A stretch of 64,000 nucleotides of DNA from Chelatococcus caeni (GTDB lineage: Bacteria; Pseudomonadota; Alphaproteobacteria; Rhizobiales; Beijerinckiaceae). Position 1 is the first letter of the stretch; each line of letters begins with the position of its first letter. Both the position numbers and the translations under genes were made by a program. The stretch lies in NCBI RefSeq assembly GCF_014196925.1, contig NZ_JACIEN010000003.1:310001-374000 (forward strand), in the 5' to 3' direction. The notes under the pieces are model-generated. The model saw nothing but the letters and a program-made list of their open reading frames with translations, had not been told where the DNA came from and did not search any database. Below are positions 5,491 to 17,741 of the stretch, piece after piece.

Positions 5491-5516
5491 ATGGCTCTCA
5501 CATGGCTCTTACATGG
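5489..5516. repeat. Short imperfect tandem repeat at the ilvH/GH5 junction
   Basis: The unit ACATGGCTCT is repeated back to back, with a third partial copy (ACATGG). It spans the gap between the ilvH stop (5509) and the GTG start of the GH5 gene. Probably slippage; on the minus strand it creates two consecutive ATGTGA mini-stops. Confidence 0.6.
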
Positions 5517-6078
5517 ACTCGGCGCCGCGGCCGATGGCCGCGATGCCGGTGCGGGCCACTTCCGTCAGCCCGCAGGCCGTCATCAGGCTGATGAAACGCT
5601 CCGTCTCGTCGCTGGTCCCCGTCAGCTCGAAGATGAAGGACGAGAGCGTCGCATCGACCGTGCGGGCGCCGAAGGCCTGGGCGAGCCGCATCGCCTCCAC
5701 GCGAGCCTCGCCCTTGCCCACCACCTTGACGAGCACCAGCTCGCGCTCGATGGCATCGCCGTTGACCGTCAGGTCGTCCACCCGGTGCACCGGCACGAGG
5801 CGCGAGAGCTGGGCCTTGATCTGCTCGATGACATGCGCCGTGCCCGTCGTCACGATGGTGATGCGCGACAGGTGCTTCTCGTGCTCGGTCTCGGAAACCG
5901 TGAGGCTCTCGATGTTGTAGCCCCGGCCGGAGAACAGGCCGGCGATGCGCGCCAGCACGCCCGGCTCGTTGTCGACGATCACCGCGAGCGTATGGCGCGC
6001 GATGGGCTCGGCGGCGGGAGCATCTGAATAGTGGGACTTCATCGGCGGACCTGCGAAGGGGGGCTGAACATGCTGCAT
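5509..6078 (-). CDS. ilvH: Acetolactate synthase small (regulatory) subunit
   Basis: Regulatory subunit that activates the catalytic subunit IlvI and confers feedback inhibition by valine. 189 residues from ATG 6078. The N-terminal ACT domain (about 29-100) begins HTLAVIVDNEPGVLARIAG and contains GRGYNIESLTV; the C-terminal ALS small-subunit domain holds LVLVKVVGKGEARVEAMRLA. Family similarity begins near residue 29, so ATG 6042 (MKSHYSD) is an alternative start. A GST gene lies between ilvH and ilvI, all on one strand; ilvI-GST-ilvH may be one transcript under the ilvI attenuator. Confidence 0.95.
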   Translation of the reverse strand: MQHVQPPFAGPPMKSHYSDAPAAEPIARHTLAVIVDNEPGVLARIAGLFSGRGYNIESLTVSETEHEKHLSRITIVTTGTAHVIEQIKAQLSRLVPVHRVDDLTVNGDAIERELVLVKVVGKGEARVEAMRLAQAFGARTVDATLSSFIFELTGTSDETERFISLMTACGLTEVARTGIAAIGRGAESM

Positions 6079-6086
6079 GATTGTCC

Positions 6087-6779
6087 TCACGCACTCTTGC
6101 GATAATTCGCGATGGGCTCTGCGTCCACCTCGTCTTCGGCGACGATCCAGGGCTCGGCCAGCGCATCCTCGCGCCACGCGCGGAAGGCCGGCAGGTCGAG
6201 GACCGCGTCCATATAGGCGCGTGTCGCCGCATCGACGGGGAAGGAATAGGTCTCGAGACGGGTGACGACCGGCGCGTACATCGCGTCAGCCGCCGTGAAG
6301 GCGCCGAAGAGGAACGGGCCGCCGGCGCCGAAGCGCTCCCGCGCCTCGCGCCAGGCGAAGGCGGCGCGCGCCACGTCGCGCGCGACCTGCGGGCCGAGAT
6401 CCATGGCCGCATACTTCTTGCCGAGGTTCATCGGGCAGGCCGAGCGCAGGGCCGAGAAACCGGCATGCATCTCGGCCGCCATCGCGCGCGCCATGGCCCG
6501 CGCCGCCCGCTCGCGCGGCCAGATCGGGAGGTCGGGGTGCGTGTCGGCGAGATAGTCGATGATGGCGAGCGATTCCCAGACGGGGATGTCGCCGTCGACG
6601 AGGGCCGGCACCTTGCCGGCCGGCGTAAAGCGGGCAACCTCGGCCTTCCACGCCGGATCGTCGAAGGTCGGGCCGAAGGGCACCTTCACCTCCTCGAAGG
6701 GGATGCCGAAGTGGCGCATGAGGAGCCACGGGCGCAGCGACCAGGAGGAATAGCACTTGTTGGCGATGACGAGCTTCAT
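6087..6779 (-). CDS. Glutathione S-transferase family protein
   Basis: Cytosolic GST-fold protein, 230 residues. The N-terminal thioredoxin-like domain (1-80) starts MKLVIANKCYSSWSLRPWLL and carries VPALVDGDIPVWESLAIIDYL, the glutathione-binding segment with cis-Pro and the Glu-Ser pair. The C-terminal domain is all-helical with FGAFTAADAMYAPVVTRLE, a typical GST N-capping region. ATG 6779 is chosen because it starts at the first beta strand; an upstream in-frame ATG would add an unconserved tail. It sits between ilvI and ilvH, an unusual insertion. Substrate unknown. Confidence 0.9.
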   Translation of the reverse strand: MKLVIANKCYSSWSLRPWLLMRHFGIPFEEVKVPFGPTFDDPAWKAEVARFTPAGKVPALVDGDIPVWESLAIIDYLADTHPDLPIWPRERAARAMARAMAAEMHAGFSALRSACPMNLGKKYAAMDLGPQVARDVARAAFAWREARERFGAGGPFLFGAFTAADAMYAPVVTRLETYSFPVDAATRAYMDAVLDLPAFRAWREDALAEPWIVAEDEVDAEPIANYRKSA

Positions 6780-6924: not shown

Positions 6925-8685
6925 TCACACCAGCATCTTGCCCTTGGCGTCGATGACCGAGCCGATGTCCTCGGCCGCGTCGCCCAGGATCATCTCGTTG
7001 TGCGCCTTGCCCGAGGGGATCATGGGGAAGCAGTTCTCGCTCTTGTCGACCACGCAGTCGAAGATGACGGGACGGGGCGTGTCGATCATCTCGCGGATGG
7101 CATCGTCGAGCTCGTCCGGCTTGTCGCAGCGGATGCCGACGCCGCCATAGGCCTCGGCCAGCTTCACGAAATCCGGCAGCGAGTGCGAGTAGCTCTCCGA
7201 ATAGCGCCCGCCGTGCAGCAGCTCCTGCCACTGCCGCACCATCCCCATGTACTGGTTGTTGAGGATGAAGACCTTGACCGGCAGGCGGTACTGCAGCGCC
7301 GTCGACATCTCCTGCATGTTCATGAGGATGGAGGCTTCGCCCGCGATGTCGACGACGAGCGCGTTCGGATGCGCGAGCTGCGCCCCGATGGCCGCCGGCA
7401 GGCCGTAGCCCATGGTGCCGAGCCCGCCGGAGGTCATCCACCGGTTCGGCTCCTCGAACTTGAAGAACTGGGCGGCCCACATCTGGTGCTGGCCGACCTC
7501 GGTGGTGACGTAGACCTCCCGGTCCTTGCTCAGTTCGTACAGCCGCTCGATGGCGTACTGCGGCTTGATGACGTCGCTCGACTTGCGATAGGCGAGGCAG
7601 TTGCGGCTCCGCCAGCCGGTGATGTCGTCCCACCAGCCCTTGAGCGCGGCCTTGTCCACCTGCGGCGCCGTGGAGCGCCACAGGCGCACCATGTCCTCGA
7701 GCACGTGGGCGCAGTCGCCGACGATGCCGATGTCGACCTTGACGTTCTTGTTGATCGACGAGGGATCGATGTCGACGTGGATCTTGCGCGAATGCGGCGA
7801 GAAGGCATCGAGCCGCCCCGTGATGCGGTCGTCGAAGCGCGCGCCGATGTTGATCATCACGTCGCAGCCGTGCATCGCGAGGTTGGCCTCGTAGGTGCCG
7901 TGCATCCCGAGCATGCCCAGGAACTGCGGGTCGGAGGCCGGATAGGCGCCGAGGCCCATCAGCGTCGAGGTGACGGGAAAGCCCGTGAGGCGCACGAGCT
8001 CGCGCAGCAGCGCCGCGGCCTGCGGCCCGGCGTTGACGACGCCGCCGCCGGTGTAGAACACCGGCCGCTTGGCCGAAGCCATAAGGGCGATCGCGGCCTT
8101 GATCTTCTCCATGTCGCCCTGCACCTGCGGGCGATAGGTCTTGTGCTGGTTGCTCGCCGGGCGCGCATAGGTGCCGCTGGCGAACTGGATGTCCTTCGGC
8201 AGGTCGATGACGACCGGGCCGGGCCGGCCGTTCGCCGCGACATAGAAGGCCTCGTGCATGATGCGCGGCAGGTCCTCGATGCGCTTGACGAGATAATTGT
8301 GCTTCGTGCAGTGCCGCGTGATGCCGACGGTGTCCGCCTCCTGGAAGGCGTCCGAGCCGATGAGATGCGTCGGCACCTGCCCGGTGAGGCAGACGAGCGG
8401 GATCGAATCCATCAGCGCGTCGGTGAGGCCGGTGACCGCATTGGTCGCGCCCGGGCCCGACGTCACCAGCACGACGCCGACCTTGCCCGAGGAGCGCGCA
8501 TAGCCCTCGGCCGCATGCACGGCGCCCTGCTCGTGCCGCACGAGCACGTGCTTGACCTTGTCCTGGTGGAACAATGCGTCATAGATCGGCAGCACGGCGC
8601 CGCCGGGATAGCCGAAGATATGTTCGACCCCCTGGTCCTGCAGCGCGCGAACCACCATTTCGGCGCCGGTCATCGTCTCGCTCAT
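6925..8685 (-). CDS. ilvI: Acetolactate synthase large (catalytic) subunit
   Basis: ThDP-dependent enzyme that condenses pyruvate with pyruvate or 2-oxobutyrate, the first common step of branched-chain amino-acid synthesis. 586 residues. The N-terminal pyrimidine-binding domain has FGYPGGAVLPIYDAL with the catalytic-type Glu in HEQGAVHAAEGYAR; the central FAD region follows. The C-terminal pyrophosphate-binding motif starts AGEASILMN, with Glu in place of the usual Asp of the GD(G/A)S motif, and includes NNQYMGMVRQWQ. ATG 8685 matches the family N-terminus (MVVRALQDQGVEHIFGYPGG). A 180-base leader carries an attenuator. Could equally be named ilvB. Confidence 0.97.
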   Translation of the reverse strand: MSETMTGAEMVVRALQDQGVEHIFGYPGGAVLPIYDALFHQDKVKHVLVRHEQGAVHAAEGYARSSGKVGVVLVTSGPGATNAVTGLTDALMDSIPLVCLTGQVPTHLIGSDAFQEADTVGITRHCTKHNYLVKRIEDLPRIMHEAFYVAANGRPGPVVIDLPKDIQFASGTYARPASNQHKTYRPQVQGDMEKIKAAIALMASAKRPVFYTGGGVVNAGPQAAALLRELVRLTGFPVTSTLMGLGAYPASDPQFLGMLGMHGTYEANLAMHGCDVMINIGARFDDRITGRLDAFSPHSRKIHVDIDPSSINKNVKVDIGIVGDCAHVLEDMVRLWRSTAPQVDKAALKGWWDDITGWRSRNCLAYRKSSDVIKPQYAIERLYELSKDREVYVTTEVGQHQMWAAQFFKFEEPNRWMTSGGLGTMGYGLPAAIGAQLAHPNALVVDIAGEASILMNMQEMSTALQYRLPVKVFILNNQYMGMVRQWQELLHGGRYSESYSHSLPDFVKLAEAYGGVGIRCDKPDELDDAIREMIDTPRPVIFDCVVDKSENCFPMIPSGKAHNEMILGDAAEDIGSVIDAKGKMLV

Positions 8686-8737
8686 CGTCTTCTCCGTTCC
8701 CTCGTCGGCGTGGCCGGACGGGTCGGACAGGGGCAAC

Positions 8738-8760
8738 AAAAAAGGGCCCCGAAGGACCCT
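8738..8760 (-). terminator. Attenuator terminator in the ilvI leader
   Basis: On the minus strand a 7-bp stem AGGGTCC / GGGCCCT closes a TTCG tetraloop and runs into a T tract. It lies 27 bases after the leader-peptide stop and 52 bases before the ilvI ATG, so it would stop transcription before ilvI. A competing pairing of GCGCCA (8806-8811) with TGGCGC (8765-8770) is visible upstream. Confidence 0.85.
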
Positions 8761-8787
8761 GCATGCGCCACCAGCCGGACCTGCGGA

Positions 8788-8838
8788 TCATCTCCGCTCC
8801 GTCGATGGCGCCCCCGTTACAATAAGAATTGCGCGCAT
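8788..8838 (-). CDS. ilvI leader peptide (attenuation), 16 residues
   Basis: Short ORF encoding MRAILIVTGAPSTERR. Codons 4-7 are Ile, Leu, Ile, Val, exactly the end products controlled by the pathway. GGAAGGA lies about ten bases upstream of the ATG, and a promoter is visible further up. The stop TGA overlaps another ATG (ATGA). It ends 27 bases before the terminator stem. By analogy with known ilv and leu leaders, ribosome stalling at these codons under amino-acid shortage should prevent the terminator from forming. The function is inferred from layout and codon content. Confidence 0.8.
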   Translation of the reverse strand: MRAILIVTGAPSTERR

Positions 8839-8871
8839 AAGCCGCACGTTCCTTCCACGTCTGTGGCGGGC

Positions 8872-8900
8872 ACGCTAGCCGAGGCCCGCCGGGCGGTCAA
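8872..8900 (-). promoter_or_regulatory. Putative promoter of the ilvI leader
   Basis: On the minus strand TTGACC (8895-8900) and TAGCGT (8872-8877) are spaced by exactly 17 bases. The -35 overlaps the miaA stop codon. Transcription would begin near 8865, about 27 bases before the leader-peptide ATG. Confidence 0.6.
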
Positions 8901-9838
8901 GCGGAAGATCGCTCCTGCACGTCGCGGGGTGCCGCCCGCAGGGCCTCGCCCATCGCCTCATGAGCGGCTTCCGGGGCGAGCCACGAGAAATCCGGCAGCT
9001 GATGGCGCACCCAGGTGAACTGCCGCTTGGCATAGTGGCGCGTGTCGGCCTGCGCCTTCTCGATCGCTTCGGCGAGGTCGATCTCCCCGCGGATGTGGCG
9101 GATGAGCCAGGGCACGCCGTGGGCCCGCATCACCGGCAGCGTGGGATCGAGCCCCCGCGCCGCGAGCGCCCTCACCTCCTCGAGCGCGCCCGCCGCCATC
9201 ATCGCCGCAAAGCGGCTGTCGATGCGGGCGAAGAGCGCCGCCCGCTCCGGCGCGAGAAAATATTTGTAGAGGCGCCAGCCGGCGAGGAGAGGCCGGCTGC
9301 GCCGGCCGTGGAAGCTCGCGATCGGCTTGCCCGTCGCCGCGAAGACCTCCATGGCGCGCAGGATGCGCAGCCGGTCGGTCGGGTTGAGCCGGGCCGCGGT
9401 GACGGGATCGCGCGCGGCGAGATCGGCATAGAGCAGCGGCGTCCCCCGGCCCTCGGCGGCCGCGCGCACGGCCGCCCGCACCTCTTCCGGCACCGGCGGA
9501 ATCTCCGACAGCCCCTCGCACAGCGCCTTGAAATAGAGGCCCGTGCCGCCGACGAAGATGGGCAGCCTCCCCTTCGCCTGCGCCTCGGCGAGCACCGTGG
9601 CGGCATCGGCGAGATAGCGCCCGACGGAATAGTTCACCGCGCCGTCCACATGCCCGTAGAGCCGGTGCGGCACCGTCGCCTCCTCGGCCTCGCTCGGCCG
9701 CGCGGTGATGGTGCGGAGGTCGCGGTAGACCTGCATGGAATCGGCATTGACGACGATGCCGCCATGCTCCTGCGCGAGCGCGATCGCCAATGCGGACTTG
9801 CCGGAAGCCGTCGGCCCTGCGATGAGGACGGCTCGCAT
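8897..9838 (-). CDS. miaA: tRNA dimethylallyltransferase
   Basis: Adds a dimethylallyl group to A37 of tRNAs reading UNN codons. 313 residues from ATG 9838. The P-loop is GPTASGKS at about 8-15, followed by the DSMQVYRDL segment and [18 protein letters not shown]. The basic C-terminal part ends with [16 protein letters not shown], typical of the family. A TTG at 9865 would add nine residues (MPEKIVTER) and overlap the divergent serB start codon. Its 3' end overlaps the -35 box of the ilvI promoter. MiaA affects translation at UNN codons, but no specific link to the ilv leader is implied. Confidence 0.95.
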
Positions 9839-9864
9839 CCTTTCCGTCACGATCTTCTCCGGCA

Positions 9865-10764
9865 ATGACTGAGACCTTGACCCACGTCGCTACTCTCATA
9901 ACCAATCCGGCCGCGCCCGTCCTCAGCCAAGATCTGGTCGAGGCGGCGGCCAGAAGCCTCGAGGCGGTCCCGGTGCCGGCCTGGCTGGACGAAGGCGTGG
10001 CGGCCGACATCCGCTTCTCGCCCCACGACGGCGTGTCTGCCCACGAGAGGCTGCGCGAGGCGCTGGGCGATGCGCCCGTCGACATCGTCGTGCAGCCGCT
10101 CGCCGGCCGGCGCAAGCGCCTGTTCCTCGCCGACATGGATTCGACCATGATCGGGCAGGAATGCATCGACGAGCTCGCCGATCTGGTCGGGCTGAAGGCC
10201 GAGGTGTCGGCCATCACCGAGCGCGCCATGCGCGGCGAGCTGCCGTTCGAGCCGGCGCTGCGCGAGCGCGTCGCCCTCCTCGGCGGCCTGCCGGTCTCGG
10301 TGGTCGACCGCATCATCGCCGAGCGCATCACCTTGACGCCGGGCGGCACCGAACTCGTGCGCACCATGCGCGCGCAGGGCGCGTACACCTGCCTCGTGTC
10401 CGGCGGCTTCACCCTGTTCACCGGCCCCATCGCGGCCCGCATCGGCTTCCACGAGCACCGCTCCAATCTCCTCATCGAGGAGAACGGCACCCTCGCCGGG
10501 CGGGTGGAGGAGCCCATTCTCGGGCGCGAGGCCAAGCTGGCGACGCTGCGCGAGCTGCGGACCCGTCTCGACCTCGCCGACAGCGACACGCTCGCCGTCG
10601 GCGACGGCGCCAATGACCTCGCCATGCTCGCCGAAGCGGGCCTCGGCGTCGCCTATCACGCCAAGCCGGCGGTCGCGGCCGCCGCCCATGCCCGCATCGA
10701 CCATGGCGACCTGAGCGCCCTGCTCTATCTCCAGGGCTATCGCCGCGACGACTTCGTGGCCTGA
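9865..10764 (+). CDS. serB: Phosphoserine phosphatase
   Basis: Last step of serine synthesis, hydrolysis of O-phosphoserine. 299-residue HAD-family enzyme. The nucleophile motif [17 protein letters not shown] starts at D90, with D92 as the general acid. Motif II Ser is in [10 protein letters not shown] and motif III/IV is [17 protein letters not shown]. The N-terminal ~80 residues form the usual small ACT-like regulatory extension. Divergent from miaA with almost no intergenic space, so the promoters lie inside the partner's coding region or are shared. A bidirectional terminator follows. Confidence 0.96.
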
Positions 10765-16862: not shown

Positions 16863-17345
16863 CGTCGCCTCACGTGATTCCGTCCCGTCGAGGCATAGCA
16901 TCGGCAACGGCGCCGGTGAATGCCTCCGGCGCCGGCGAAGGCGCGTCGCAGGCCACGAAAGGACGAGCGCAGACGTTCATCCGTCTGCGCTCGGAGGCAA
17001 CTGTCTTTCACAATGAAGCCGTGACGCCGCAATGCACGAATGGCCGCCACGACAGCGATCCGGCCCGACCGCAAATCGCATGATTATTATTGTTTAAGCA
17101 GTATACACACCGAGTGCCAAACGGCGCTCCAATAATGCTTCCTCCATACGCCATGTCAACAGACATAAACTTTCATAATTGGAATTTATTTATAAATAGA
17201 ACGACAGCAACATATCTTCTACATGTCGCATCGCAATGGCTGCAGGCCACAGTGCTGCCGGGAGGGCGCGGCAAGCCGCCGTTCGGATGGCATGCCGCCG
17301 GCCCTCCCTTGCCTGTCGGCAACTGCGCGAGAATGGCGGTGAAGG
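16863..17345. other. Gene-free stretch with a hairpin and an AT-rich block
   Basis: No credible gene. At 16965-16992 an 11-bp perfect hairpin (GAGCGCAGACG with a TTCATC loop) stands without a T tract. From about 17079 to 17235 the sequence is markedly AT-rich (for example TTTATTTATAAATAG), unlike the ~68% GC of its surroundings. Frames open across this block run on into the ssrA promoter and resemble nothing. It may hold the thyA promoter on the left; the AT-rich block could be a remnant of acquired DNA or an upstream activating region for ssrA. Confidence 0.6.
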
Positions 17346-17375
17346 CCTTCCATCGGGCCGAGAAGGTCCCTATAT
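17346..17375 (+). promoter_or_regulatory. Putative ssrA promoter
   Basis: TATATT at 17370-17375 (context CCCTATATT) as the -10, with CTTCCA at 17346-17351 as a weak -35 and an 18-base spacer. It would start transcription near 17382, just before the acceptor piece of tmRNA. The same TCCCTATATT context recurs before the small gene at 34548. Confidence 0.5.
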
Positions 17376-17381
17376 TCTGGG

Positions 17382-17700
17382 TGCCGTCGCAAGGCGGCTA
17401 TGGCGATAAACGGCCATCGCAATAAACCCATCGGACCCGGGGGCGGTACCCGGCGCCTCCACCCAAACGCGAGCGGGCCTCGCGTTTCGGCGGGGGCGAA
17501 ATAGGATCGACGAGGGTGTAAAGGGTGCGCTTTCGCTCGGCATGGTTCCGCCGTTATCGGGCCGAACTTATAGTTGCCAACGACAACTATGCTCCGGTCG
17601 CCGCGGCTGCGTAACGCAGCTTAGGTTACCGATCCAAAGTCCTGACGGTTAGCCCCGGCAGGCGGGGTTCGGAGGCACCTGGCAACAGAAGCCTCCACTT
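17382..17700 (+). ncRNA. ssrA: tmRNA, circularly permuted two-piece alphaproteobacterial form
   Basis: The acceptor piece comes first: the T arm CCGGG/CCCGG with a seven-base loop ends at CGCCTCC-ACC (17454-17463). After a short intervening hairpin, the coding piece starts GGGGGCG at 17492, which pairs with CGCCTCC to close the tRNA-like acceptor stem. The tag frame after ATAGTT reads ANDNYAPVAAAA and stop, matching the ANDN...AA pattern of alphaproteobacteria. Downstream are pseudoknot-like stems ending in GGAGGC/GCCTCC (to about 17697). CCA is not fully encoded. Both ends are approximate. The RNA rescues stalled ribosomes; sspB follows 41 bases later. Confidence 0.93.
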
Positions 17701-17741
17701 TCTTGTCAATCGCTGGCCTAGAAGGCATCGCTCCGGAACAC

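Follow-up and report, generated by a model that had tools for sequence, protein, structure and literature searches.

An attenuator of ilvBN/ilvIH in Caulobacter crescentus was reportedly the subject of work by Tarleton et al. in 1994. The Caulobacter ilvBN/ilvIH genes are described as attenuated in a further paper (PMC4117421). In Sinorhizobium meliloti, a 2008 paper presents an “ilvIH cis regulatory” element, at that time absent from Rfam, for which the comparative study of Vitreschak 2004 is cited (PMC2573895). Another attenuator of Sinorhizobium is known for its products, peTrpL and rnTrpL, which have been published as trans-acting (PMC10117765). Here, the region upstream of the acetolactate synthase gene ilvI of Chelatococcus caeni is compared with these systems.

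Organization of the ilvI upstream region

The window, i.e., the whole stretch of 64,000 nucleotides that was analysed, is part of a 5.43-Mb genome (G000, contig C3). On its minus strand, miaA is followed in turn by a promoter, the sequence GGAAGGA, a leader ORF, a hairpin, a terminator, ilvI and the small-subunit gene (Table 1). The promoter with its 17-nt spacer, the ribosome site, the 16-codon ORF and the terminator before ilvI had been pointed out in a preliminary description of this DNA, and all of them were confirmed in the sequence. Among named records, Chelatococcus sambhunathii has the closest IlvI (98%). The mechanically called ilvI ORF begins at TTG 8739, ATG 8685 being its residue 19; since the IlvI proteins of 50 of 80 relatives match the window ORF only from residue 12-19, ATG 8685 is the more likely start. 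Transcription of the leader would begin near 8865, leaving an untranslated region of about 27 nt, and an in-frame GTG found 9 nt 5′ of the leader ATG could conceivably serve as an alternative start.

Table 1. Coordinates of the leader elements and flanking genes in the window.
Feature	Position	Strand	Basis or detail
miaA, upstream neighbour	8897..9865	-	Homology
-35 box TTGACC	8895..8900	-	Sequence; 5/6 match to sigma-70 box; overlaps miaA stop codon
-10 box TAGCGT	8872..8877	-	Sequence; 3/6 match to sigma-70 box; 17-nt spacer
Shine-Dalgarno-like GGAAGGA	8850..8856	-	Sequence
Leader peptide ORF MRAILIVTGAPSTERR, 16 codons + stop	8788..8838	-	ATG 8838, TGA 8790-8788
Regulatory codons AUU CUU AUU GUA	8829-8818	-	Sequence
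Valine codon GUA, likely trigger	8818..8820	-	Columns G19 T20 A21 invariant over 79 leaders
Hairpin 1:2 (protector), loop holds leader stop codon	8765..8811	-	Fold and compensatory changes
Predicted antiterminator 2:3	8753..8782	-	AGG-UCC 8782-8777 with GGG-U-CCU 8759-8753
Intrinsic terminator 3:4 with U-run	8737..8760	-	AGGGTCC-TTCG-GGGCCCT 8760-8743, then T's
ilvI (large subunit of acetolactate synthase), presumed target of control	6925..8685	-	NCBIfam PRK09107, 1144.6 bits, cut-off 974
ORF with acetolactate synthase small subunit, downstream of ilvI	5509..6177	-	Homology from residue 60

Two further elements were noticed. A permuted (two-piece) alphaproteobacterial tmRNA gene of ordinary type, with the tag ANDNYAPVAAAA, lies at 17344-17705 on the plus strand of the window. 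Outside the window, at about C3:303,400-303,550 on the minus strand of the same genome (L198), a short ORF that ends ...GVLRLSGLLLLLSRP* stands before leuA. Its codon run CTG CTT CTT CTC CTT makes a leucine attenuator likely there too; a clear U-run terminator was not found by eye at this site.

Conservation of the leader module

By IlvI similarity, 307 related stretches were fetched and the best 80 were kept. Because IlvI alone decided, the leader played no part in the choice. A detector asking for a short ORF with a run of isoleucine, leucine and valine codons (ILV run), then a terminator, recovered the module in 78 of the best 80 of these 307 relatives. The other two were recognized by hand, giving 80/80, or 81/81 with the window. 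In one of them (L028), MRAVLIVTGAPSTERR is accompanied by a promoter and a terminator, the leader lying 456 nt upstream of ilvI behind inserted repeats; in the other (L059), ...LIVPEAPSTGRA is found within a longer frame. The repeats of L028, of the CTCTCCCG...CGGGAGAG type, occupy about 2650-2980 and separate the attenuator terminator from ilvI. Retention of the module in all 80 relatives picked by IlvI argues that it is not a chance occurrence. Counts of 79 below refer to the window plus the 78 detected relatives, L028 and L059 being left out.

The leader promoter was not listed by a strict consensus scan because its -10 box matches only three of six positions, and the case for its being real would lie in its conservation. 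Indeed, TTGAC and a -10 element starting with TA occur in 79/79 leaders, window included, with a spacer of 17 nt in 76 and of 18 nt in three, and the -10 sequence is TAGCGT in 39. The Shine-Dalgarno-like site is less clear in the relatives than in the window. At five of the 79 loci, named by eye (L032, L033, L034, L049 and L068), the -10 element ends at most 12 nt from the leader start codon, so that these leaders may be transcribed as leaderless mRNAs, which has been reported for Sinorhizobium trpL.

Beyond these relatives, 121 genomes of the order were drawn and the loci of the best-scoring matches retrieved. Among the 29 ilvI loci examined besides that of the window, the module was present in 21 and no leader was found in eight. 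Outside the order, a sample of the class gave 29 ilvI loci, of which L145 has little upstream DNA. The detector returned two ILV-run ORFs with a terminator (L128 and L132), both unlike the window leader, and seven ILV-run ORFs without a detected terminator. Among the latter, L140 carries the ORF MTTQLVLIRQPLSGRD about 216 nt before the point where the IlvI match begins, with the codons CTC GTA CTT ATT; next come a hairpin able to fold and a GC-rich stem that has few T's. The detector missed this terminator, which has a poor T-run; by eye, L140 may be a distant counterpart of the ilvI attenuator.

A search was also run with model R1. In the window's own genome its single strong match was the window's leader, itself part of the model, and in 385 genomes of the class matches were obtained in 10, the window's genome included. 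Under strict filters R1 is too narrow, and no claim of absence is drawn from it. Two weak R1 matches in the same genome (L083 and L084; E 0.10 and 0.16) were discarded, being by eye terminator-like stretches elsewhere.

Terminator and protector hairpin

Three terminator-like sites were found in 8650-9000 against a shuffle mean of 0.1, the leader terminator being the strongest. A terminator is present in 79/79 detected leaders and, by eye, in L028 and L059. Between the regulatory codons and this terminator stands the protector hairpin. The GUA codon occupies leader nt 19-21 and the stem of hairpin 1:2 runs from nt 28, so that a hairpin of conserved structure lies just 3′ of the regulatory codons, as in an attenuator. 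The 126-nt stretch folds only moderately better than its shuffles (z -1.89, 14/200 shuffles as good).

Covariation was assessed in 30 of the 79 leaders, picked for a similar peptide layout and making 29 distinct rows, which were aligned with plain MAFFT. Together, terminator and two-part hairpin are paired in 93.7% of cells, a value favoured by construction since the structure was derived partly from the window's own fold. Within the same alignment, nine pairs are altered in both partners (5.3 on average in shuffles, 2/500 as high), and 42 cells are changed on both sides (shuffle mean 15.2, 0/500 as high); further pair types are less striking (19 vs. 16.3, 25/500). When partners were slid by 1-3 columns, at most three double-changed pairs and nine cells remained. 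The check proposed in the preliminary description, an alignment of relatives, hence came out in its favour: the ILV codons are kept in 81/81 loci and the stem is kept with compensatory changes in the 30 aligned leaders. Its central proposal, i.e., that stalling at isoleucine, leucine and valine codons controls termination before ilvI, gains support from this conservation and these compensating changes. It had also suggested that the overlap of the leader stop with another ATG may add coupling. The UGA does overlap an ATG in the window; however, this arrangement is not conserved, and translational coupling was rejected because the overlap occurs in only 4/102 leaders (window, L002, L003 and L042).

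A valine codon, GUA, is favoured in the leader

A GUA codon lies within the ILV run in 79/79 leaders (65 distinct). In these leaders, the codon preceding it ends in C in 57 and in T in 22, and the second codon before it has T as third base in 74. Valine codons of the 79 leader peptides are GUA in 92 of 109 cases inside the ILV run and in two of 42 outside it. Among 3150 valine codons in the ilvI genes at these loci, 0.9% are GUA, and in the same genes AUU makes up 11% of isoleucine codons and CUU 6% of leucine codons; in seven genes of the window, GUA makes up 0.5% of 219 valine codons. When both locus sets are taken together, the run contains GUA in 99/102 leaders with terminators. The exceptions are L114, where the run has GUC/GUU instead, and L128 and L132, whose ORFs look chance-like. 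At the Atu_C8 loci described below, only 31 of 50 run valine codons are GUA, the rest being GUG, GUC and GUU (28 leaders, partly overlapping the earlier sets). Judged by these counts, the nearer relatives obey the GUA rule strictly, and across the order it holds only loosely.

By standard decoding, GUA is read solely by the UAC tRNA. Among 45 tRNA matches in the window's genome, one gene each was found for tRNA-Val UAC, GAC and CAC. Biased regulatory codons in attenuators have been explained by selective charging, and rare-codon choice alone is regarded as an oversimplification in that work (PMC1183508). Codon conservation, together with the folding described below, makes valine GUA the likely main trigger, rather than isoleucine.

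Switch geometry

Ribosome stalling was modelled by removing the covered bases from the fold and calculating the cost of freeing terminator strand 3 before strand 4 exists; the model, which folds partial transcripts at equilibrium, is crude. The leading edge of a ribosome extends 13-15 nt. Counted from the first base of GUA, stalling three codons before it corresponds to offsets 4-6, two codons before to 7-9, one codon before to 10-12 and at GUA itself to 13-15. Among the 79 leaders, the proportion with a cost above 2 kcal/mol was 3% at offsets 6-8, 18% at 9, 34-54% at 10-12, 70% at 13, 95% at 14 and 92% at 15. Such values suggest that the terminator's first strand would be sequestered by a ribosome halted at GUA and rarely by one halted two or three codons earlier. 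Past GUA, at offsets 20-29, 61-76% of the 79 leaders still exceeded this cost, and the cost at GUA was higher than that at the stop codon by 0.5 kcal/mol in 39/79 leaders, with the reverse in 34/79. The model would hence tell where the switch opens and is silent on how it closes.

In the window, the 2:3 pairing is the best fold only with leader nt 33 to 42 as the first free base: the cost is 0.98 kcal/mol at nt 32 and 3.01 at nt 33, where 1:2 yields to 2:3. With a 13-nt edge, the cost is 0.98 kcal/mol at GUA vs. 2.15 with the ribosome at the stop, and 3.0-3.1 kcal/mol is reached only with an edge of 14-15 nt. An antiterminator exclusive with the terminator is predicted in most leaders. L012 and L038 have a strong one, and leaders such as L012, with 9.11 at GUA vs. 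0.39 at the stop, make a convincing case; in the window it is weak and depends on the edge assumed. When paired with upstream RNA, strand 3 gives duplex energies that improve on shuffles only a little (mean z -0.62). A single fixed antiterminator helix common to all leaders was sought and not found, the partners varying by lineage.

The leader region and the Rfam family Atu_C8

At the gathering cut-off, Rfam gave no match at the leader and none in the loci of 10 relatives. In a permissive search, RF02502 (“Rhizobiales sRNA Atu_C8”) aligned over its full length at 8727-8842 with 35.7 bits (E 6e-6), below the family cut-off of 50 bits. Atu_C8 presumably has an experimental basis in Agrobacterium. 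Its consensus reads AUG AUU AUU CUU GUG GUG GGC CCG CGC AUG GGC AGG GCG GUG UAA, which in our own reading of the alignment would be a branched-chain leader. Of the 121 genomes of the order, 62 have a match at E <=0.001 and 18 exceed the cut-off. Every one of the 63 places, that of the window included, is followed on the same strand by an ilvI-type gene at a distance of 20-161 nt (median 72). An ILV-run ORF was seen in 28 of the 30 loci examined, L222 and L225 being those without one. No match was obtained in the 14 control genomes, which include Caulobacter vibrioides. One genome of the order (G407) has two ilvI-type genes, each with an Atu_C8-type leader (G407:C1559 and G407:C1049).

The position before ilvI-type genes and the ILV-run ORFs indicate that the Atu_C8 “sRNA” family is probably the terminated or nascent leader of the ilvI attenuator. 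A term search of the main text of an Agrobacterium ncRNA survey returned no word starting with “ilv”. Neither the identity of Atu_C8 with the ilvI attenuator nor the invariance of GUA was found in the literature searched, which covers few subscription journals; therefore, neither can be called unpublished.

Discussion

A short ORF with a run of pathway codons at 81/81 loci and a terminator between this ORF and ilvI lead us to predict, with high confidence, a ribosome-mediated transcription attenuator of ilvI. As far as sequence and comparison go, its parts, their order, their conservation, covariation and codon bias are established. Stalling, an antiterminator in this lineage and valine (GUA) as main trigger are what we infer. 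RNA polymerase would start near 8865 and a ribosome would begin the leader peptide. With ample charged tRNAs for valine (and leucine and isoleucine), this ribosome would proceed to the stop codon UGA within the hairpin 1:2 loop, strand 2 would be masked or 1:2 would re-form, and terminator 3:4 would stop transcription before ilvI. When charged tRNA is short, the ribosome would halt at AUU CUU AUU GUA; once GUA is in the A site, the base of hairpin 1:2 would lie under the leading edge, strand 2 would pair with strand 3 and transcription would enter ilvI.

Other explanations account for parts of these observations. The terminated leader could work chiefly in trans, as a functional peptide, a small RNA or both, with the terminator being no more than its 3′ end. 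The full-length alignment with a family filed as sRNA speaks for this, as do the published trans functions of peTrpL and rnTrpL of Sinorhizobium (PMC10117765). However, the window misses the family cut-off, and the 63/63 matches before ilvI-type genes, along with the conserved ILV run, are what a cis attenuator predicts. A trans role would add to cis attenuation and not replace it; we consider a mainly trans-acting leader very improbable. Still less credible is an ordinary terminator of the miaA transcript accompanied by a chance ORF, with ilvI expressed from a later promoter. Intrinsic terminators are common after genes and miaA ends at 8897, but a promoter just 5′ of the ORF keeps its position relative to it in 79/79 leaders, the ILV run, start position and rare codons of the ORF are conserved in 81/81, and hairpin 1:2 covaries. 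Equally hard to sustain is a metabolite- or tRNA-binding riboswitch in place of a ribosome sensor, which the structure and conservation of a leader ahead of a biosynthetic gene might bring to mind: conservation tracks the codons (second-base T's and GUA), the stop codon sits in a hairpin loop, and the four Rfam families listed at E up to 10 include no T-box or amino-acid riboswitch.

If the ribosome-mediated attenuator is accepted, a bolder proposal may be ventured, which as a whole is speculative and rather doubtful. The ilvI attenuator would, in this part of the Hyphomicrobiales, be tuned to one isoacceptor, tRNA-Val-UAC, through a GUA codon that is near-absent from ilvI genes and placed so that mainly a ribosome stalled there opens the switch. 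Valine would then serve as master signal for the three branched-chain amino acids together, and the terminated transcript would be Atu_C8, which may also act in trans like rnTrpL. The position of GUA offers a simple testable rule for the amino acid sensed. Describing Atu_C8 anew as the ilvI attenuator, or linking it to the latter, is suggested and would alter the reading of such RNAs in transcriptomes.

Comparison with described attenuators

Atu_C8 resembles the window leader by its site before ilvI, its full-length alignment and its aligned terminator; it differs in being filed as an sRNA gene, in the GUG valine codons of its consensus and in the window's score under 50 bits. Sinorhizobium meliloti, which we take to belong to the same order as the window organism, offers two comparisons. 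Its trpL/rnTrpL/peTrpL system shares an attenuator leader and a terminated RNA in a rhizobium; it is, however, a tryptophan attenuator with a leaderless mRNA and reported trans functions, whereas an untranslated region is expected in the window. Its ilvIH element concerns the same gene, also with predicted attenuation. This likeness is one of description, and peptides and stems vary between the lineages examined here; the window element is most likely an orthologue of this element. Caulobacter crescentus ilvBN/ilvIH belongs to another alphaproteobacterium and has a Rho-independent terminator and a leader with tandem isoleucine and valine codons before the acetolactate synthase genes, as here. 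It is likened by description and not by sequence; RF02502 has no match in Caulobacter vibrioides. With these precedents in Caulobacter and Sinorhizobium, attenuation of ilv genes is already known as a kind, and the window element therefore belongs to it as a further case: a mode of control that has been described in Caulobacter and predicted for a rhizobium is found here in all of the best 80 of 307 relatives.
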